The notes beneath the pieces are model-generated. The model did no database searches, was not told the DNA's origin, and saw only the letters and a program-made list of their open reading frames with translations. From the NCBI GenBank assembly GCA_001789695.1, contig MGAI01000057.1:29079-63672 (forward strand): a stretch of DNA of 34,594 bases, read 5' to 3'. The stretch comes from Candidatus Roizmanbacteria bacterium RIFCSPLOWO2_01_FULL_37_16. GTDB lineage: Bacteria > Patescibacteriota > Microgenomatia > UBA1406 > GWC2-37-13. The position numbers and the translations under genes were made by a program. Each line of letters begins with the position of its first letter. Position 1 is the first letter of the stretch. Shown piece by piece: positions 5,599 through 23,253 of the stretch.

Positions 5599-8598
5599 AT
5601 GTTTAAACCTGTAGAAAATAATCTAAATTTTCCCGAGATGGAAAAGAGCTGGCTTAAGAGCTGGTATAAAGAAGGGATCGATAAAAAATATCTCCAGAAA
5701 AACCTTGAGTCAGACAAAATTTTTTCTTTTCTTGATGGGCCAATAACCGCCAATAATCCCATGGGTGTTCATCATGCTTGGGGAAGAACTTATAAAGATC
5801 TTTGGCCGAAATTTTATAACCTGTTAGGTTACCGGCAAAGATTTCAAAACGGATTTGATTGTCAGGGACTTTGGGTTGAGGTGGAGGTTGAGAAAGACCT
5901 TGGTTTAAAAAGCAAAAAAGAAATAGAAAACATAGTTCCTCATGACAAAAAAGCTTCAATCGCTAAATTTGTCGAACTTTGCAAGCAAAGAGTTTATAAA
6001 TATGCAAAAGTACAAACCCAGCAGTCGAAGCGACTTGGATATTTTGCCGATTGGGATAATTCCTACTATACGATGAGCGATGAAAACAACTATATGATCT
6101 GGCACTTTTTAAAAAAATGTTTTGAAAACGGCTGGATTTATAAAGGTCGGGAGTCGGTACCTTGGTGTCCAAGATGTGAGACGGCGATATCGGAACATGA
6201 GATATTGACTGAAGACTATAAAGTTGTTACTCATGAATCAATTTACTTTCTTTTACCTCTGATTGATCAAAAAAATGAATACCTGCTGGTTTGGACGACT
6301 ACTCCTTGGACAATTCCAGCCAATATTGCAGTTGCAGTAGATGAGAATCTGGATTATTCATTGCTTAAGACAGAAAAAGGAAAGGTGTGGTTAGCGACTG
6401 AAACAATTTCAAGAGTTATAAAGTCTAAAGATCATAAAGTTATAAAGAAAGTAAAAGGAAAGGAATTGGTCGGTTTAAAATATGAGGGACCCTTTGATCA
6501 GCTTGCTTCTGTTTCGCAAGTAGCCAAAGAAAATCCAAAAACATTCCACCACGTAATTCCAACCGATAATAGAATTTTGCCAATCACAGTTACTGAGGGA
6601 ACGGGCATGGTGCACACAGCAGTTTCCGCAGGCACCGAAGACTTTAGACTGGGTAAAAAACTTGGACTTCCGATGATTCCTGTTATCGATGACAATGCAA
6701 ATTATCTTCCAGGTTTGGGATTTCTAACTGGCAAATCTGCCAAGAAAAATCCTCGGTTGGTACTAGATTATCTTGAGAAAAATGGCTTCGCTTTCAAGAT
6801 TTTTGATTATAAACATCGCTATCCTGCCTGCTGGAGATGTAAGACAGAACTAGTTTGGAAGGTGGAGGATGAGTGGTATATTGCGATGGATAAAGAGAGT
6901 AAGAAGTTGGGAGTTGAAAGTTGGAAGTTGAAGAATAAAAAAATAACCTCGAACCTCCAACCTCAAACCTCTAACTTGACTTTAAGACAGAAGATGATTG
7001 AGGTGGCGAAAAAGATACGCTGGATGCCTGGGTTTGGACTAGATCGGGAGCTTGATTGGTTAAAAAATATGCACGATTGGCTCATCAGCAAGAAAAATCG
7101 TTATTGGGGTTTGGCTCTTCCAATCTACGAATGTAGAAAATGCCGCAGGTTTGAGGTTCTCGGATCTAAGCAGGAATTAAAAGATAGGGCGGTTAAGGGT
7201 TGGGATGAGTTTGCAGGTCACACACCGCATAAGCCCTTTATTGATGAAGTGTTGATTGAGTGTTCAAACTGCGCTGGACTGGTTAAAAGGATAGACGACG
7301 TTGGCAATCCTTGGCTTGACGCAGGCATCGTTGGTTATTCAACTATTACAGAAGACAACAGGGGAAAACCGCTTTATCTTAAGGATAAAGCTGAATGGAG
7401 AAAGTGGTTCCCGGTTGATTTTATTACCGAATCATTTCCTGGACAGTTTAAAAACTGGTTTTATGCTCTGATTGCCGAATCAACGGTTCTTGAGAATACA
7501 CCTCAATTTAAAACGGTTTTGGGATTTGGCACACTTCTTGGTGAGGATGGCCGTCCGATGCACAAAAGTTGGGGAAATGCAATTGAGTTTAACGAAGGAG
7601 CAGATAAAATTGGAGTGGATGTCATGCGCTGGATGTTTGTAAGACAGAATCCGTCAGAAAATATACTTTTTGGCTATAAAAAGGCCGATGAAGTTAGGCG
7701 GTTGTTTTATCTTATGCTTTGGAATGTATATAAGTTTTTTGTGGAATATGCAAATTTAGATAAATTCGTGCCCGGGAACCCTCAGGGTTCCTGGAACCCT
7801 GAGGGTTCAGTCAGTGTGCTTGATCAGTGGATATTGAGTAAGTTTTCTAAGCTAGTCTTATTTGTTGAGAAATCTTTAAAAGCCTATAACAGCAAAGACG
7901 CGGCTTTGGAGATTGAGAATTTTGTCAACGATCTTTCGACTTGGTATATAAGACGAAGCAGAGAAAGGGTTTGGCTAAATTCTAGTAACAAGAGTGATAA
8001 AAAGTATTTTTATCAGAGGCTACATTATGTTTTGGTCAATCTTTCCATTATAATTTCTCCTTTTCTACCTTTTATCTCAGAAGAAATGTATACAAATTTA
8101 ACAGCTGAGAAGTCAGTCCATTTAGCTAAGTGGCCAAAGATAGGTAAATCGGTAATCAGTCAATCGGTTGAGCAGGAAATGGATCTCGCCAGGAAAGTTG
8201 TTGAAACTGGTCACGCCATAAGGAAGGCTTTAAATTATAAAGTAAGAATGCCATTAGCGAAGTTAGACGTTGAAGTCGAGGGAGAGTATGCAAATCTTTC
8301 TGAAGCAATCTGGGATTTAATTTTGGCTGAACTTAATATTAAAAACATAGTTGTGAATAAAAAAATAAAATATCCAAAAAAAGAGGTAAAGGTTTCAGTT
8401 AATAAGCTAAAGCAAGAGGGAGAATTGCGTGAAGTTTTAAGATCAATTCAAGCAAAAAGAAAAGACTTAGGTTTAAGGCCGACTGATAAAATTAATTTAA
8501 CCGTTCCCAGGCAATTTGTATCTGAGCTGGACTTCTTAAGGAATAAAGTTATGACCAAAAAAATAAACATAGGAGATAAACTTAAAGTTGAAATATGA
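5599..8598 (+). CDS. ileS: Isoleucyl-tRNA synthetase
   Basis: Class I synthetase that charges tRNA-Ile, with a CP1 editing domain that removes Val-tRNA-Ile. The HIGH-type site is GVHHAWGRTY (residues 56-65). The KMSKS-type loop is the variant MHKSWGN (654-660). Editing motifs TTPWTIPANIAVAV and GTGMVHTAVSAGTEDFRLG are present. Cysteine pairs CPRC near 190, CWRC near 412, CRKC near 512 and CSNC near 555 suggest zinc knuckles. At 999 residues it lacks the longest C-terminal zinc domain. Two DNA-level insertions interrupt it in frame: a 7-nt-period inverted repeat (residues about 434-461) and a double GGAACCC hairpin (about 726-737). Both fall between conserved blocks. It uses a TGA stop. Confidence 0.98.
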   Translation: MFKPVENNLNFPEMEKSWLKSWYKEGIDKKYLQKNLESDKIFSFLDGPITANNPMGVHHAWGRTYKDLWPKFYNLLGYRQRFQNGFDCQGLWVEVEVEKDLGLKSKKEIENIVPHDKKASIAKFVELCKQRVYKYAKVQTQQSKRLGYFADWDNSYYTMSDENNYMIWHFLKKCFENGWIYKGRESVPWCPRCETAISEHEILTEDYKVVTHESIYFLLPLIDQKNEYLLVWTTTPWTIPANIAVAVDENLDYSLLKTEKGKVWLATETISRVIKSKDHKVIKKVKGKELVGLKYEGPFDQLASVSQVAKENPKTFHHVIPTDNRILPITVTEGTGMVHTAVSAGTEDFRLGKKLGLPMIPVIDDNANYLPGLGFLTGKSAKKNPRLVLDYLEKNGFAFKIFDYKHRYPACWRCKTELVWKVEDEWYIAMDKESKKLGVESWKLKNKKITSNLQPQTSNLTLRQKMIEVAKKIRWMPGFGLDRELDWLKNMHDWLISKKNRYWGLALPIYECRKCRRFEVLGSKQELKDRAVKGWDEFAGHTPHKPFIDEVLIECSNCAGLVKRIDDVGNPWLDAGIVGYSTITEDNRGKPLYLKDKAEWRKWFPVDFITESFPGQFKNWFYALIAESTVLENTPQFKTVLGFGTLLGEDGRPMHKSWGNAIEFNEGADKIGVDVMRWMFVRQNPSENILFGYKKADEVRRLFYLMLWNVYKFFVEYANLDKFVPGNPQGSWNPEGSVSVLDQWILSKFSKLVLFVEKSLKAYNSKDAALEIENFVNDLSTWYIRRSRERVWLNSSNKSDKKYFYQRLHYVLVNLSIIISPFLPFISEEMYTNLTAEKSVHLAKWPKIGKSVISQSVEQEMDLARKVVETGHAIRKALNYKVRMPLAKLDVEVEGEYANLSEAIWDLILAELNIKNIVVNKKIKYPKKEVKVSVNKLKQEGELREVLRSIQAKRKDLGLRPTDKINLTVPRQFVSELDFLRNKVMTKKINIGDKLKVEI
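6906..6979 (+). repeat. Heptanucleotide-period inverted repeat inside ileS
   Basis: Four 7-nt units starting GTTG (6906, 6913, 6920, 6927) are followed, after a short A-rich spacer, by five 7-nt units starting AAC (6945, 6952, 6959, 6966, 6973), four of them AACCTCN. The two arms are roughly complementary, so the array can fold back. It is read through in frame between the conserved blocks DEWYIAMD and LRQKMIEVAKKIRW. Confidence 0.85.
7775..7808 (+). repeat. Double GGAACCC hairpin inside ileS
   Basis: A 7-bp stem GGAACCC/GGGTTCC with loop TCA (7775-7791) is followed at once by the related GAACCC/GGGTTC with loop TGA (7794-7808). The insertion is in frame and encodes a Gly/Pro/Asn-rich stretch just before VSVLDQWILSKF, a conserved block of the anticodon-binding domain. 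Confidence 0.85.
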
Positions 8599-15391: not shown

Positions 15392-15985
15392 TTACGAAGT
15401 GATCTTATTTAAAGATTTTCCTAGTTTAAATTGAACAGGAATATAAACAAGTAGACTAATTATAAGGAAAAAAAGAGGAAAGCCAAAATTGGCAAAATTC
15501 CAGGTTGTGATGGTTAGCAAAGTCAACAATCCATTTATTGAATCTGCCAGCCAAGGCCAAGCGCTTTCGGTTTCGGGGAATTTATAGGCTTTTGCGATTG
15601 TTGGGACATAAGCTAAACCGTCTGAAATGATACTAAAAAATATAGCAATGTTTCCTACTTTAGTCACCTGCCAGAGTACCAGTCCAATTAGAGAAAGTGC
15701 CCCACAAGTTAAATCAAATCTATTTAATTTCCAGTAAGCTTTCCTATTTAAATATGAGGCAAAAAATATTGCCAGAGGAAATATTCCTACACTTAGGGTC
15801 ATGAGTGATTGCAGTCCTACACCTTGTTTGATTTCGGCTGCAAATGCGATTATAGGAGCCAAGGACCATAAAAAGTATGAAACCTTGTTTGGTTTTATTT
15901 TGCCTCTGATCACATTAATAAGATAACTTAAGGCCCCAATTGCGGAAAGAGTCACGCCAACATAAACCAGATTTTGATTCAGCAT
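15392..15985 (-). CDS. Multi-spanning membrane protein with PQ-loop-like repeats
   Basis: 197 residues with about six or seven membrane helices. Two internal halves look related: the first contains INVIRGKIKPNKVSYFLW, and the second contains PTIAKAYKFPETESAWPW followed by another Trp/Leu-rich helix. This resembles the PQ-loop (SWEET/SemiSWEET) arrangement, where a Pro-X motif ends a helix, but the match is weak. Substrate is unknown. The gene has an extended -10 (TGCTATACT) 6 bases before its ATG. A copy of its promoter and first codons survives at 17879-17944, as part of the segmental duplication. Confidence 0.55.
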   Translation of the reverse strand: MLNQNLVYVGVTLSAIGALSYLINVIRGKIKPNKVSYFLWSLAPIIAFAAEIKQGVGLQSLMTLSVGIFPLAIFFASYLNRKAYWKLNRFDLTCGALSLIGLVLWQVTKVGNIAIFFSIISDGLAYVPTIAKAYKFPETESAWPWLADSINGLLTLLTITTWNFANFGFPLFFLIISLLVYIPVQFKLGKSLNKITS

Positions 15986-15991
15986 ATCTCG

Positions 15992-16000
15992 AGTATAGCA
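15992..16000 (-). promoter_or_regulatory. Extended -10 of the 15392 membrane-protein gene
   Basis: TGCTATACT on the minus strand ends 6 bases before the ATG. The same element (TGTTATACT) is kept in the duplicate at 17939-17947. Confidence 0.6.
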
Positions 16001-16056
16001 AACGACGTAATAATATAAGCGGAGGTTTACTTGAGGCTAGAAGTAATGATAATTAT

Positions 16057-16596
16057 TTACTGGCCTTTTTGTCCCAGTTGGGATACGAAGTCACGCAATT
16101 TTTCAAGACCTGAACGGAATTTTGATTTTCTGAAATAGGAATAATATTTTTTTCGAGATATAGGACTAGCTGTACTTATCAACTGAGCGATTTGCAATAA
16201 CTGTTCAGGTGTAAATCTTGAAAGCAAGTCAACTTCTCGTTCGCCAACTGCTTCAGGCATTTTCGTCGTTTCTAAAAATATGAGATTTTTTATTCCAGAG
16301 TCATCTCTATAATTTATAGAAATGAATAATCCATCAGGATCAGGAGATTCTGGTAATCCTATAGAAGCTAAATTGATTACACCTAGACCCGGAGCGGAAA
16401 AAAATGCTTCATATGTTCGTGCTTTATCCGCTATCTTTAGGACAGCAGTTGTCTCAGTCTGGTTTGCCACCAAGCTGACTTGAGCTACTCTAACAAGATC
16501 ACTTATTGCAGCAGTTCGCGTTTGAATTTCCAATTGAGAGAAGCTCTGAGCCATTTCATTTCTTGCTGATAAAGTTTCAAGAGCAGCGTGAGGCAT
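16057..16596 (-). CDS. Orphan protein, copy A of a duplicated gene
   Basis: 179 residues, family not recognised, no membrane helix. The middle block (SDLVRVAQ..., EAFFSAPGLGVINLASIGLP, DPDGLFISINYRDDSG) looks like a small alpha/beta domain. A helical C-terminus follows: FTPEQLLQIAQLISTASPIS, then a basic tail ending SQLGQKGQ. Its paralogue at 18004 shares all of these blocks, with the C-terminal half better conserved than the loops, so the protein has been under selection. It is transcribed from a TTGACT-16-TATAAT promoter lying directly before the start codon. Confidence 0.65.
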   Translation of the reverse strand: MPHAALETLSARNEMAQSFSQLEIQTRTAAISDLVRVAQVSLVANQTETTAVLKIADKARTYEAFFSAPGLGVINLASIGLPESPDPDGLFISINYRDDSGIKNLIFLETTKMPEAVGEREVDLLSRFTPEQLLQIAQLISTASPISRKKYYSYFRKSKFRSGLEKLRDFVSQLGQKGQ

Positions 16597-16605
16597 TTTG
16601 GAGAT

Positions 16606-16633
16606 ATTATAATAGTATATATTTAAAAGTCAA
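16606..16633 (-). promoter_or_regulatory. Consensus promoter of the 16057 gene
   Basis: TTGACT (16628-16633), a 16-bp spacer and TATAAT (16606-16611) on the minus strand. The -10 ends 9 bases before the ATG, so the transcript should be leaderless. The same promoter is preserved in copy B. Confidence 0.8.
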
Positions 16634-16656
16634 GCTAAATGGGTTTATACGATAGG

Positions 16657-16790
16657 CTATTTTGCTTCTATACCCAGTCTCTCAGCTGATATTAGAATTA
16701 TTTCAGCGAGGGGGAGATTGTTTTTTGAGAGTTCGTCTTGAGCTTTTTGGAGTTATCCTGCATTTGAGAAAGAGACATTGCTTTGGATTT
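16657..16790 (-). pseudogene. Degraded 3' fragment of a lipase-like gene
   Basis: On the minus strand this stretch encodes SKAMSLSQMQ and then, one frame over, AQDELSKNNLPLAEIILIS and AERLGIEAK followed by TAG. This is the C-terminus of the 19271 protein (SKAVSLSQMQ, KNNLPLAEILLYSAERLGKE). A one-base deletion lies between the two parts. The upstream portion of the gene is gone, and the orphan gene at 16789 begins where the homology stops. It is a relic of an earlier lipase copy next to copy A. Confidence 0.8.
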
Positions 16791-17878: not shown

Positions 17879-17932
17879 TTAAACTTTTTCAGAAAGAGTC
17901 ACGTTAACATAAACCAGATTTTGATTTAGCAT
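17879..17932 (-). pseudogene. 5' remnant of the PQ-loop-like membrane-protein gene
   Basis: A 17-codon reading frame whose first residues MLNQNLVYVNVTLS match the start of the 15392 protein (MLNQNLVYVGVTLS), then diverges and stops. Its extended -10 (17939-17947) is intact, so it may still be transcribed. It marks the left boundary of duplication copy B. Confidence 0.75.
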
Positions 17933-18003
17933 ATCTCGAGTATAACAAAAGACGTAATAGGATAAGCGGAGGATTATTTGAGGCTAGAAGTAATGATAAT
18001 AAT

Positions 18004-18556
18004 TTACTCGCCTTTTTGTTCTAGTTGGGATACGAAGACGCCTAATTTTTCAAGACCTGACCGGATTTTTGATTTTTTGAAAAAAGAGTTATACCTTCTT
18101 CGAGAAATAGGATTAGCTATTCTAATTAGTTCACCGATTTGCTGTAGCTGTTCAGGTTCAAATTCCCAGTTATCTAGAACATCCTGTAGACTAATTACTT
18201 GAGGCGACTTCGGTAAATCTAAAAAAATCTACAAGACTTATAATTTCTCCAGTATCAGCTTTATAATGCAGGGAAATAAATAGTCCATCAGCATTAGGAG
18301 TTTCTGGCAATCCTACACAACCTATTTTGATTACACAAAAGTACTGAAGGGAAAAATATGCGTCAAATATCCGAGACTGATCCGGTAGTCTTTTTATCTT
18401 AGCAGTTAGCTCGGTTGGATTTTCCACCAACCGACCATGAGCTACCCTAACAAGATCGCTTAGTCCTTCAAATCGCGCTTCAATTTCCGAAGTAGGAAAT
18501 GTCTCGGGTTTTATGCTTCTTCTTGATAAAGATTCAATATCTACCTGGTGAGTCAT
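18004..18556 (-). pseudogene. Orphan gene, copy B, with a one-base frameshift
   Basis: Paralogue of the 16057 protein. The first 121 residues read from the ATG at 18556 (with LSDLVRVAHGRLVEN and NADGLFISLHYKADTG) and then stop early at 18191. In the next frame homology resumes with FEPEQLQQIGELIRIANPIS and KSKIRSGLEKL, and runs to a TAA at 18004-18006. The shift falls at a run of seven A (18221-18227; T7 on the coding strand). Removing one T would restore a protein of about 183 residues. Both halves remain well conserved, so this could be a recent mutation, a sequencing indel or a slippage site. Confidence 0.8.
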
Positions 18557-18565
18557 TTTAGGGCT

Positions 18566-18593
18566 ATTATAATAGTATATATTTAAAAGTCAA
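18566..18593 (-). promoter_or_regulatory. Consensus promoter of copy B gene
   Basis: TTGACT (18588-18593), 16-bp spacer and TATAAT (18566-18571), 9 bases before the ATG at 18556. It is identical in layout to the promoter of copy A. Confidence 0.8.
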
Positions 18594-18730
18594 GCAACAA
18601 TGGGTTTATACGATAGGCTATTTTGCTTCTTTACCGTTCATTTAGCAGGTTAGAAGATAATTTTTTGCGATAAAATTCTTAGTTTTAGTTATAGAAACTT
18701 TACTAATGATAAATTTGATCTTGACAATTT

Positions 18731-18756
18731 AGTCCAATCGATTAATCGATTGGACT
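18731..18756. repeat. 26-bp perfect palindrome, distal end of the TrpR-like cassette
   Basis: Half-site AGTCCAATCGATT followed by its exact reverse complement. One further base pair each side also matches (18730, 18757). It starts one base beyond the stop codon of the TrpR-like gene and is identical to the palindrome at 19212-19237. As RNA it would form a 13-bp stem. No T-run follows it in the direction of transcription. Confidence 0.95.
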
Positions 18757-18757
18757 A

Positions 18758-19201
18758 TTAAACATCAAGAGCTTTTCTTTCTTCTTTCCTTCTTTTATGC
18801 TCGTGTTTTAGCTGCCAGTGACCGATTTTTACTCCTGGCTGGATAAGAAGATCGCTAAATATATCGTCAATGAATCCTAATATTTTTCCTTTTGAGATTA
18901 TTCGTCTTATAATTTGAATAGATTCCGTTTCTTTTTCATAAAAAAGTAGGGAATATTTAGAAACAGTGGATTTAGATACTTTTAGATAATCTGCAATTAC
19001 ACTACTAGTTAAGCCTTTGGTCAAAAGATATATTATGGCAATTCTTTTAGAGATCATTATTTGCTCAGGAGGAGAAATGAAATCGGTGATAATTAACAAA
19101 AAATTGTCTTTGTTGGCTGAGCGTGAGAGTAATTCAAAGAATAATTGATACAACTTTCTTAATTTTTCCTTATCTAAGTATTGTTTCGATAAATGTACCA
19201 T
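18758..19201 (-). CDS. TrpR/YerC-like HTH regulator bounded by palindromes
   Basis: 147 residues. An N-terminal helical region leads into SPPEQIMISKRIAIIYLLTKG and a helix-turn-helix (about 64-83, LTSSVIADYLKVSKSTVSK). This order is that of the Trp repressor/YerC superfamily. The C-terminal 65 residues are extra compared with TrpR and end in a strongly basic tail (KHEHKRRKEERK) that could contact DNA or RNA. The start is 10 bases from one 26-bp palindrome and the stop 1 base from an identical one, so the gene fills the cassette. A TATAAT at 19251-19256 would place transcription start just before the upstream palindrome, a layout suited to autorepression. The ligand is unknown. Confidence 0.8.
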   Translation of the reverse strand: MVHLSKQYLDKEKLRKLYQLFFELLSRSANKDNFLLIITDFISPPEQIMISKRIAIIYLLTKGLTSSVIADYLKVSKSTVSKYSLLFYEKETESIQIIRRIISKGKILGFIDDIFSDLLIQPGVKIGHWQLKHEHKRRKEERKALDV

Positions 19202-19211
19202 AATTGTGAAA

Positions 19212-19237
19212 AGTCCAATCGATTAATCGATTGGACT
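19212..19237. repeat. 26-bp perfect palindrome, promoter end of the TrpR-like cassette
   Basis: Identical to 18731-18756. Symmetry continues three bases further on each side here (AAA and TTT; 19209-19240, 32 bp in all). It lies between the presumed transcription start and the ATG, so it is a likely operator for the protein it precedes. The hairpin could also shield the start codon. Confidence 0.95.
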
Positions 19238-19250
19238 TTTGAACTGTAAA

Positions 19251-19256: not shown

Positions 19257-19270
19257 ATTATCATATTAGA

Positions 19271-21937
19271 TTATCTAATTTCTTTACCTAATCTTTCGGC
19301 GGAATAAAGGAGAATTTCTGCCAAAGGTAAATTGTTCTTAGATAATTCTTCTTCGGCTTTTTGCAGTTTTTCTTGCATTTGAGAGAGGGAAACTGCTTTT
19401 GACAAAACATTTACACCTTTACTTTGTTGGCTGATTAGGTAAGTTTCTAGCTCTTTATACTGGTTTTGCGAGCTAGAGAGTTTCTTTTCCAGATCTTGAC
19501 GTTTGGGTAAATATCTTTCCTGAATAGAGGCTTTTTCGTAAAGGTTTTCGAACTGTGTTAACGCACTATATAACTTATTTTTACAGATTAGGGAGGCCCT
19601 TTTTCTCAGGTTGAAGATATCGCTATGAGACTGCAAAAGAGGCGATCTAAGATAAGAAAATATTTTTTTGAGGATAGTTTCAATTGAACTACCACAGTCT
19701 TTTTTAAGATTTGTTAACCTTTTGATTAGCAGTCTAAAAAGTAATGGAAGATTTTTTTGATTGACAGGAAAGTCCTGAAGATTTTCCGGATCAAAAGCAA
19801 TAGTATAGCTGTCTGTCTGAAGCATTGGAAAAATTTTATTTATTTCTCCATCGATCTCAAACCACCTGTCATCGTTATCTGCAATTTGTCCAACTATTAC
19901 AGTGTATTGGCCGCCAGGATATTTTCCCCTGACTTTTAGTTCATAGTCGCCGGCTGGGGCATTTTCAATAAAGATCAGTCCGTCTTGTTCTTCGTATCGT
20001 TGGCCAAGAAAATTAACTTCCATTATAGCTGGAGAAAGGAGTGCAAAAATAAGAGCAGGCGAGATTTTAGTGGAAGCACCTTCTCTGATCTGGCTTTGGC
20101 TATAGGGGATAGTTAATTTATCTAAAATTGTGCTGATGGATTGATTTTTATAGATTATTTCTCCGTGGTCTAGTGAAAGCGTAACCTGATCATTGCCTGC
20201 CAGAGCGCTATTTAAGCTAATAACATTGTCACCCAAAGAATTACGCTTCTCGATGGGTCTTCCATCTGGATAGTTGCCTAATAGGATGTCTAAAAAAGTC
20301 CTTGGGATAACTTTGTAGCCAAAGAGCGTATTGTTGCCTTTGTCTCCGGCTAGCGTGGACAACTGCGGAAAAAGCTGCGGAAATCCAGATGAATAATTTA
20401 ATAGTGTATCGTTTTTAATTTTCATATATTGTAGGGGGATTGAGTTTTCCTGCTTGTCGAGCAAAAAATCATAGATAGGAAAAAGATCTTTAGCAACCGG
20501 GATGACACTGTTTGCTGTTTGTCTATCGGTTTGGAAGCCACTTCTGTTTATCTGAAGGATAAGTTTTTGCATAAGCCAGATGACTGTATTGTCTTTATCT
20601 AGTTCGCCAGCTTCGACCAGTTTATAGGTTTTTGCCGTACCAAGATGGGGCGAACCTGCCGTGACTATTTTGTCGACCAAATCCGTTTCGTATTTTTGTA
20701 TATATATTCTTGATACCAGCCCACCCAGTGAGTGACCGACCAGATCAATTTGGGTATTTGCCAGGTTGTGATTGATTCGAAAATTCTTGAGATCTTCGGT
20801 AATTTTTTCGAGGTTTTTTCTCCAGTCGTAAGCAAAGATGAAGAAGTCTTGATTTTTAACATAACCTAAGTTTTCTAGAGTATGGATAAGGCCATTGTAT
20901 TCTTTGACGAAAGGCAACAGTTTCCACTCGTTCTGTGAGACTTTTTTATTATGGAGCATTGCTTCTTTATTCCAGGAAGCCATATGGCCATGGACGATTA
21001 TTATTTTTCTTTTGCGAGGATTGGGGGTAGGCGTAAGCGATGGAGTTGGAGTTGAGGTGGGTTGGTTGTTTGAGGTTGCCAGGCTTAATTTTATACCGTC
21101 CTGATAGAAACCAGAATAATAAAGGTAGAGCATATCTTGTTTGTCGAAGACAGAGGGGCCAAGTATCGGCTCGGGAAGAACCGTCTGAAGATTTAACCAG
21201 GTCATAGAACAAGATAGATTGTTGGAAGATTCTGCCTGTCTTACTCCAAGGGGGGATTGGAAAAAAAGATAATATTTTCCGTCTTTTGTTAATATGTGCG
21301 GCCCGTCGCTTACCTCCGATGTTATCGGATTATTTGAGCAGCGCTGCCAGGTATTTCCATCGGATGAGGTAGCCATACAGATTCTAAAACCTTGACTCCC
21401 CCAACAGAGATAAAAAAGGTAATACGAACCATTCTCATAGATAACCGAAGGTGAAGACACGGCGCTTGATTCCAAACTACCAGATGGTTGTAAGACTAAT
21501 TGACGTGAGTTTGGATCAAAGTTTACTCCGTCGGATGAATCTATACTGTAGATTTTAAAATTTTGGCTGCCGACGTTCGTTGTGGCTACGAAAAATAAAG
21601 TATAACCGCTTTGGGTTTTTAAAATTGCTGGATCGTGATTGTCAAAACTCGGATAGACGTCAAGTAGATTTTGTCTAATCCAGTTTATCCCATCATTAGA
21701 GGTCGCGTAGACGATTTTGTACTGAGAACCGGTTGCGCTGGCATACCACATTTTAAATATTCCATTATCAAATATAACCGAAGGTTGATATTGGGCGGCT
21801 TCGTTCCAGTTGGGAAAGTTGTTTGTGAGGGGAAGAGGATTGTTAAGTGATTTTATAAAAGGCGCAAAAGCATGTGTTGGAGAGACGAAAATTAGAATAA
21901 TGAAAAAAAATAACAAGAAGAGAATTTTTCTAAACAT
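19271..21937 (-). CDS. Secreted beta-propeller / alpha-beta hydrolase (lipase-like) fusion
   Basis: 888 residues, exported. Signal peptide 1-24 (FLLFFFIILIFVSPTHA). Residues about 45-290 repeat blade motifs such as PSVIFDNGIFKMWYASA and SPSVIYENGSYYLFYLC with SxDGxxW turns, a five-bladed propeller like glycoside hydrolase clans 43/32/68. A Thr-Pro linker spans 291-308. Next is an alpha/beta hydrolase: IIIVHGHMASW, then DLVGHSLGGLVSR with nucleophile Ser403, AGSPHLGTA, and GDNVIS with a later LDHGEI as probable Asp and His. This arrangement resembles LCAT/PGAP1-type lipases. The C-terminal 170 residues are helical and coiled-coil-like. The TATAAA 9 bases before the ATG predicts leaderless translation. 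Substrate, ester lipid or glycolipid, is unknown. Confidence 0.8.
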   Translation of the reverse strand: MFRKILFLLFFFIILIFVSPTHAFAPFIKSLNNPLPLTNNFPNWNEAAQYQPSVIFDNGIFKMWYASATGSQYKIVYATSNDGINWIRQNLLDVYPSFDNHDPAILKTQSGYTLFFVATTNVGSQNFKIYSIDSSDGVNFDPNSRQLVLQPSGSLESSAVSSPSVIYENGSYYLFYLCWGSQGFRICMATSSDGNTWQRCSNNPITSEVSDGPHILTKDGKYYLFFQSPLGVRQAESSNNLSCSMTWLNLQTVLPEPILGPSVFDKQDMLYLYYSGFYQDGIKLSLATSNNQPTSTPTPSLTPTPNPRKRKIIIVHGHMASWNKEAMLHNKKVSQNEWKLLPFVKEYNGLIHTLENLGYVKNQDFFIFAYDWRKNLEKITEDLKNFRINHNLANTQIDLVGHSLGGLVSRIYIQKYETDLVDKIVTAGSPHLGTAKTYKLVEAGELDKDNTVIWLMQKLILQINRSGFQTDRQTANSVIPVAKDLFPIYDFLLDKQENSIPLQYMKIKNDTLLNYSSGFPQLFPQLSTLAGDKGNNTLFGYKVIPRTFLDILLGNYPDGRPIEKRNSLGDNVISLNSALAGNDQVTLSLDHGEIIYKNQSISTILDKLTIPYSQSQIREGASTKISPALIFALLSPAIMEVNFLGQRYEEQDGLIFIENAPAGDYELKVRGKYPGGQYTVIVGQIADNDDRWFEIDGEINKIFPMLQTDSYTIAFDPENLQDFPVNQKNLPLLFRLLIKRLTNLKKDCGSSIETILKKIFSYLRSPLLQSHSDIFNLRKRASLICKNKLYSALTQFENLYEKASIQERYLPKRQDLEKKLSSSQNQYKELETYLISQQSKGVNVLSKAVSLSQMQEKLQKAEEELSKNNLPLAEILLYSAERLGKEIR

Positions 21938-21995
21938 TAAGATCTGTTTATAATCTATCCGAGACTAGATCAATGGATTATATGCTACAAACAGG

Positions 21996-22946: not shown

Positions 22947-23253
22947 GGAGGAATTATCTTAAGTGGAATGCTATTTGTCTGTGGATTATAATCTACAAAA
23001 TAAGCTTATTGGATTGATTTGACGAGATAAATATTACGATATACTCATTTAAAGATCAGAAGGATTTAAAAAGAATCTGGATGGGAATTTCAGCAATATA
23101 AAAAACGACTTACATAGAAAAATTTTAAAAGCGATATTTTTCACCTTTTTTATTCCGATTTATTTTATTTTCAGGAAAATTATTTGGAAGTTGAATTATG
23201 GGTGATTGATTTTTGCGATTTTAAGAAGGAGTGAAATGGTATAATAGATTGTT
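22947..23253. other. AT-rich intergenic region, divergent promoters only
   Basis: 307 bp between the divergent methyltransferase and 23254 genes. It holds the two start-proximal -10 boxes (22953-22958 minus, 23240-23245 plus), a further TATAAT near 22984 in either orientation, and a 12-bp palindrome AATAAGCTTATT (22999-23010). I see no gene, RNA or long repeat in the rest. Confidence 0.6.
23237..23245 (+). promoter_or_regulatory. Extended -10 of the 23254 gene
   Basis: TGGTATAAT ends 8 bases before the ATG at 23254, which predicts a leaderless mRNA. Confidence 0.65.

Follow-up and report, generated by a model that had tools for sequence, protein, structure and literature searches.

SlmA, Noc, MatP and ParB are site-specific DNA-binding proteins with tens of palindromic sites, also within genes. 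There is one site type per protein and chromosome, and the gene is, as a rule, not bracketed by two sites. The E. coli trp operator is a palindrome with a TTAA centre. In-gene palindromes that preserve the reading frame include the Rickettsia palindromic elements (RPEs), which are insertions, as well as PARCELs and HIP1. PARCELs, tandem repeats of 25 residues, encode amphipathic segments (PMC2996958), and the HIP1 octamer is linked to methyltransferases (PMC4390886); none of the three is known to accompany an HTH gene with that palindrome on either side. In REP/RAYT systems, the gene encodes an HUH tyrosine transposase and is flanked by palindromes (REPs), which carry a GTAG or GGAG tag and mostly occur as doublets (REPINs); the abundance of the cognate repeat depends on the gene, and repeats may differ between orthologous genes ("orthoswitch") (PMC3686654).

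Here we describe a TrpR-like gene in a Roizmanbacteria-type genome of 1.14 Mb (60 contigs). It is bracketed by two copies of one palindrome that recurs elsewhere in this genome, and relatives have different palindromes at the same positions; together, this suggests an unrecognised system of protein and site and not an ordinary jumping gene. It resembles REP/RAYT in all three respects: flanking palindromes, dependence of their abundance on the gene and different repeats at orthologs. The predicted fold, however, is that of TrpR, the palindromes are single, untagged and often within genes, and sites are replaced without change in length. With SlmA, Noc, MatP and ParB it shares dispersed palindromic sites in and between genes, whereas the fold is unrelated to theirs, and up to seven paralogs per genome and switching of site type set it further apart. 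The likeness to Trp repressor/YerC-like proteins (PF01371) consists of the fold, the HTH and a palindromic site that is centred on TTAA in many of the types found here, as in the trp operator; the family differs from them by extra C-terminal helices, a gene bracketed by two sites and remote sites within unrelated genes. Searches of the open-access literature gave no description of a transposable TrpR system or of TrpR together with palindromes in Patescibacteria; judged by title and abstract, the papers matching Microgenomates and palindromes were off topic. The genomes of Patescibacteria are tiny and dense in genes, yet a family of ~147-aa proteins is tied there to long, exact palindromes within genes.

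The Palindrome-Bracketed Locus

The window, i.e., the whole analysed stretch of 34,594 nt, contains two identical 26-bp copies of AGTCCAATCGATTAATCGATTGGACT (18731-18756 and 19212-19237), which delimit a span of 507 bp. As the original prediction had it, the distal copy lies 1 base from the stop codon and the start-side copy 10 bases from the ATG of the TrpR-like gene (18758..19201, minus strand; 147 aa), with nothing but this gene between the two. The symmetry is longer than noted at first: the distal palindrome, immediately 3' of the stop codon, is perfect over 28 bp (18730..18757) and the start-side palindrome, in the gap that separates the ATG from the stop codon of the lipase gene, over 32 bp (19209..19240), neither being assigned a strand. 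Exact half-sites occur in the window only at these two flanking palindromes. That a chance pair is negligible was borne out genome-wide: the 26-mer is matched 11 times with at most three mismatches and the reversed control pattern not once, which excludes a chance origin of the palindrome.

The palindrome had been taken for the likely site of the HTH protein itself, and its start-side copy for one suitably positioned for autorepression; both proposals are supported. A protein dimer would bind the long palindrome as its own recognition site and, from the start-side copy (a putative operator that lies over the promoter or between it and the ATG), would shut down transcription of its own gene.

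The gene next upstream, which shares its strand, encodes an 888-aa lipase/esterase-like protein whose N-terminal part is glycosidase-like (19271..21937, minus strand), and the order from lipase to TrpR-like gene recurs at another locus, L020. A promoter-like motif, GTTTGTAGCATATAATCCATTGA, is found upstream of the lipase gene (21970..21992, minus strand) and also precedes many family genes; in many homologs, the motif TTTTGTAGnnTATARnC is closely followed by the start-side palindrome, a position in which binding would block transcription. Genome-wide, it has ~15 matches against none for the reversed control. The form TTTTGTNGNNTATARTCCATTGA occurs upstream of two window genes (21970-21992 and 22978-23000, minus strand), and is possibly a common promoter form of the lineage. 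The TrpR-like gene of the window lacks its own copy of the motif and may depend on readthrough from the lipase gene or its promoter. A TTGACA that follows the conserved TATAAT was considered as a -35 box, but this was dropped as uncertain, because TTTTGTNGNNTATARTCCATTGA is also present upstream of other genes and is better understood as the -10/start region of a promoter.

A Predicted TrpR Fold with a C-Terminal Extension

The assignment to TrpR-like HTH proteins withstood a profile search: residues 18-84 of the 147-aa protein match Pfam Trp_repressor (PF01371) with 31.7 bits against a cut-off of 27, and the same profile matches 86 of 87 family members in a Pfam scan. The cut-off of the TrpR equivalog profile TIGR01321 was not reached (17.7 against 67.25 bits). 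An AlphaFold2 model built from 87 homologs is all helical, with a mean pLDDT of 79. Its top Foldseek matches in the PDB are E. coli TrpR and TrpR-like structures (probability 1.00; TM 0.7-0.8 on the target), none of them with an E-value below 0.001. Judged by this model, the encoded protein is of the TrpR fold, and it is probably dimeric, the dimer being the form that would bind DNA. Beyond residue ~85, extra helices of low model confidence extend past the TrpR profile; this C-terminal extension, ~63 residues long (65 according to the original prediction), is partly conserved within the family, and P122 is near-invariant.

No HUH/tyrosine transposase or nuclease domain was present among the Pfam matches of the 87 members, and PADLOC gave no match to an anti-phage defence family. 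A phage origin was rejected, no relative having been confirmed among viral contigs.

The In-Window Duplication and Its Junction

The gene adjoins a segmental duplication (15945-16674 / 17892-18635; 75.5% identity), to which an additional 123-bp match in the 3' end of the lipase gene belongs (16666-16787 / 19280-19402). Copy A (15945..16787, plus strand) joins both sides without gene or palindrome: the 644-653 bp that carry the gene are absent from it, and its junction corresponds to a 22-bp imperfect direct repeat, with the left copy at 18614..18635 and the right copy at 19267..19288 (both plus strand). Homology of copy B ends at 18635, near the bracketed gene as had been noted, albeit 95 bp from the palindrome and not within the 90 bp claimed.

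The original prediction had read the locus as a 507-bp mobile cassette, a minimal insertion element ending at the palindromes. The gene is bracketed exactly, and some similar members are found in different neighbourhoods, where DNA homology comprises the gene and ~30-100 bp per side, implying that relocation or duplication of members is occasional. The in-window duplicate, however, does not offer the clean 507-bp empty site foreseen: it differs by ~645 bp, and the ends are not at the palindromes. Moreover, only the TrpR-like gene lies inside, without any transposase or recombinase (for want of a transposase, a transposon with terminal repeats was rejected too), many orthologs are syntenic, and the remote single palindromes mostly show no change in length (see below). 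The locus is also shared with a relative (MGAN01000002.1, Candidatus Roizmanbacteria RIFCSPLOWO2_01_FULL_40_13; taken as G001), in which the orthologous gene is truncated; it must be old, because the same lipase gene precedes the truncated ortholog. The junction of copy A, the old shared locus and the length-neutral remote sites speak against palindromes that serve as ends, and we deem a mobile cassette extremely unlikely. Loss of the gene from copy A is the simpler reading, since the lipase-TrpR order is common to the Roizmanbacteria relative.

Matching Palindromes at Both Gene Ends across the Family

Two paralogs, 46% and 41% identical, are located on contigs C4 and C6 of the source genome. 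The C6 paralog is bordered by ACTCCAATTATTTAAATAATTGGAGT and AATTCCAATTATTCAAATATTCGAATAATTGGAATT, the C4 paralog by an imperfect upstream copy and ATGTATCGATTAATCAATTAATCGATACAT. More copies or near-copies of the C4 type are found on C27, C31 and C4, while copies of the C6 type are, at the mismatch level applied, confined to the gene that it brackets. A Nudix-like gene elsewhere in the source genome (L017:919-1490) lies between two near-copies of the C4 palindrome.

When 185 relatives were searched with the three paralogs, homologs were identified in 80 genomes, with 0-7 per genome; a survey of the phylum gave a match at 1e-12 in 38 of 287 genomes, many of these matches being partial or distant. 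Homologs and sites were taken from draft genomes. Palindromes with a score of at least 10 within 60 bp of the gene end are present upstream at 40% and downstream at 58% of the 90 loci read, as compared to 0.0% and 0.4% for dinucleotide shuffles and 3% for other ORF ends. The upstream and downstream palindromes of one gene match each other with a median score of 17 (7 for non-cognate pairs), and a score of at least 12 is attained by 69% of own pairs and 6% of non-cognate ones. Several more distant members of the class are bracketed likewise. Palindromes of unrelated sequence in relatives had been named as evidence against the original prediction; the types do differ among relatives, but each matches the one at the other end of its own gene. 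In our reading, each family member has a private palindrome type at both gene ends. The type CTTCGATGTATCGATACATCGAAG, present with small variations in genes of G068, G069 and G071, was forecast, before the flanks were viewed, to border a family group not inspected until then, and in these three genomes it does so.

In three genomes (L097, L101 and L081), the palindrome of the TrpR-like gene has a third copy, so that it brackets an adjoining thermonuclease-like gene as well; this copy is situated at 2410, 2409 and 2439, respectively (gene orientation). In the fourth (L092), the equivalent place carries a different palindrome, GTGAGACAAGGCATGCCTTGTCTCTAC.

The site types have a common architecture. 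Complementarity amounts to 78% at the innermost pair and 89-96% further out; no unpaired loop is kept, since the central pairs are complementary too. Counted outward from the centre, positions 1-3, 6 and 11 are common to the types (mostly A A T .. A .... A), and positions 4, 5 and 7-9 vary among them, as expected of related dimeric proteins with diverging specificity. Once overall relatedness was allowed for, the recognition helix showed no significant covariation with the palindrome; of the residual correlations with site type, that of the N-terminal arm (residues 1-22) was the strongest, though uncalibrated for significance. For the TrpR fold, the family is a source of many natural pairs of protein and site.

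Dispersed Copies and Their Dependence on the Cognate Gene

Ten of the 11 copies of the 26-mer in the source genome retain a perfect 20-bp core and one has a single mismatch there, no copy having two or three core mismatches, while their flanks look mutually unrelated. Five of the nine remote copies are intergenic and four within ORFs. In a second genome, G045, the pattern CAATCGATTAATCGATTG has 16 matches (one mismatch allowed), and 12 of the 13 remote loci read are inside ORFs. Nearly all of these in-ORF sites encode QSIxRL or QSFNRL in the sole open frame, in genes that were named by eye, without a profile search, as those for transketolase, QueA, a MiaB-like radical SAM enzyme, PyrD, MurD and several glycosyltransferases. 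Through these in-gene palindromes, unrelated enzymes acquire a similar stretch of sequence (..LQSIKRLK..). They are single and untagged, with neither a GTAG/GGAG tag nor inverted doublets.

If the protein were an ordinary autorepressor and the palindromes beside its gene worked chiefly as RNA hairpins that protect or terminate the message, this would account for perfect palindromes near both transcript ends, which could fold, and for the promoter-like motif before many homologs. It leaves the in-gene remote copies at conserved positions unexplained; the sites are, moreover, A/T-rich and without a loop. Given that the central pairs are complementary as well and that no T-run follows the distal palindrome, we rejected hairpins or terminators as the main reading, and regard an RNA function of this kind as very unlikely.

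The number of copies follows the presence of the gene. In one genus, the L092 type occurs in 18, 6, 4 and 9 copies in the genomes with the cognate gene and in 4, 1 and 2 copies, with six zeros, in those without (rank-sum p 0.003; counts include the gene's own flanking copies). In the relative with the truncated ortholog, a single near-copy of the palindrome is left in the genome, at the truncated gene itself. G011, which has no family member, contains 15 long palindromes in 400 kb and none of the family types tested, as compared to 41 in 367 kb of G000 and 50 in 374 kb of G045; the count for G000 is biased upwards because the stretches were partly picked for holding sites. Counting against gene dependence, G002, in which no family member was detected, still has a few palindromes. 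Overall, copies are common where the cognate gene is present and rare elsewhere.

In G002, a perfect palindrome, GGTATATCGTTATATCGATATAACGATATACC, stands at the position (L301) orthologous to the L008 site of the source genome.

Length-Neutral Replacement and Switching of Site Type

The in-frame, gene-lengthening insertion typical of RPEs is not the pattern encountered here: 40 of the 46 ortholog alignments that span the remote sites of G045 have no core gap. The six exceptions comprise gaps of 3 bp at L142 and 1 bp at L145 and, at L143, neighbourhoods that vary. The relative is palindromic, too, at 20 of the 46 orthologous positions (43%; score of at least 8), against 0.34% of 1,470 control windows from the same alignments. 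Some of these palindromes are the same by descent and many are of different sequence; at the L138 site, for instance, four relatives carry ACTTCAATCGATTAAACGATTGAAGT, CTCCAATTAATTAATCAATTGGAG, CACTACAATTAATTAATCAATTGGAGTG and TGTACAATCGATTAATCGATTGTACA. G068, whose own family gene at L034 is flanked by TGTATCAATCTATCAATAGATTGATACA, carries this type at the MurD-like site. The expectation that every orthologous palindrome strictly matches a paralog in the same genome was only partly borne out, the 20 orthologous sites agreeing moderately with members of the same genome (p 175/5000). The L006 site of the source genome aligns without any gap to TGTTCAATCGATTAATCGATTGAACA in G005, at the same codons, while an insertion of 24 bp is present there in G004 and a 3-bp gap nearby in G001. 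By these alignments, the dispersed copies are mostly length-neutral replacements and not insertions. This poses a sharp question, namely how a 26-bp sequence can repeatedly take the place of as many bases of a housekeeping gene without inserting, and offers a setting in which gain, loss and switching of sites can be followed across species.

We lean, with some reserve, towards an autoregulated TrpR-fold DNA-binding protein that has its own chromosomal network of sites. The anatomy of the locus, its matching ends, the dispersal, the mostly length-neutral replacement and the co-occurrence with the gene are read from the DNA itself, and we infer from them dimer binding, autorepression, an effect of remote binding and the spread of sites. 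The same palindrome, at ~2-16 other chromosomal places, intergenic or in frame within genes, would provide remote binding sites, set up by changing existing bases and not by inserting DNA. Such sites would persist while the cognate gene is alive, fade after its loss and be able to switch palindrome type at the same codons. In coding sequences, they could arise via selection on near-matching helix-coding stretches or by conversion-like copying. Remote binding may organise the chromosome, in the manner of SlmA, Noc or MatP, or act as a road-block to transcription; against a site network, we know of no reason for regulator sites amid housekeeping genes. If the sites are functional, they make up an uncharacterised chromosome-wide binding system in ultra-small uncultured bacteria.

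The palindromes could also be selfish, the protein and host enzymes copying them by conversion-like replacement without benefit to the cell; they would then constitute a REP-like element without a transposase. Much of the pattern is that of REP/RAYT, with own repeats flanking the gene, copies that need the cognate gene and orthologs with different repeats, and there are, in addition, several private types per genome, a patchy gene distribution, types that switch in place and sites lost where the gene is truncated. The copy numbers are low, however, the Pfam scan of the 87 members showed neither a nuclease nor a tyrosine transposase domain, and there is no known mechanism for length-neutral replacement of 26 bp at only partial similarity; we judge selfish copying possible but rather unlikely. 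With the site network as the preferred reading, we put forward only tentatively, as a doubtful proposition, that the family forms a new protein-palindrome class, in which a TrpR-fold protein with no recognised nuclease would drive copies of its operator into unrelated, even essential, coding sequences in a length-neutral manner, with rival paralogs overwriting sites at the same codons.

Other Palindromic and Repeated Sequences

The window holds further repeats. A 33-bp palindrome, GAACCCTCAGGGTTCCTGGAACCCTGAGGGTTC (7775-7808), lies in frame within an isoleucyl-tRNA-synthetase-like gene; it has a near-copy in another gene on C40 (L260:4490) and represents a repeat family distinct from the TrpR-linked ones. 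In the same ileS-like gene, a stretch encoding GVESWKLKNKKITSNLQPQTSNL (6910-6978) looks like an in-frame inserted repeat peptide. A long intergenic inverted repeat with TAGTTACAACTGGTTTAAACTAGTTGTAACTA (929-979) may be a terminator or the site of another family member. Furthermore, G045 harbours a second palindromic repeat family, GTAGAGACAAGGCATGCCTTGTCTCTAC, in frame within genes (L207:18321 and L217:5040), which begins with GTAG, as tagged REPs do.
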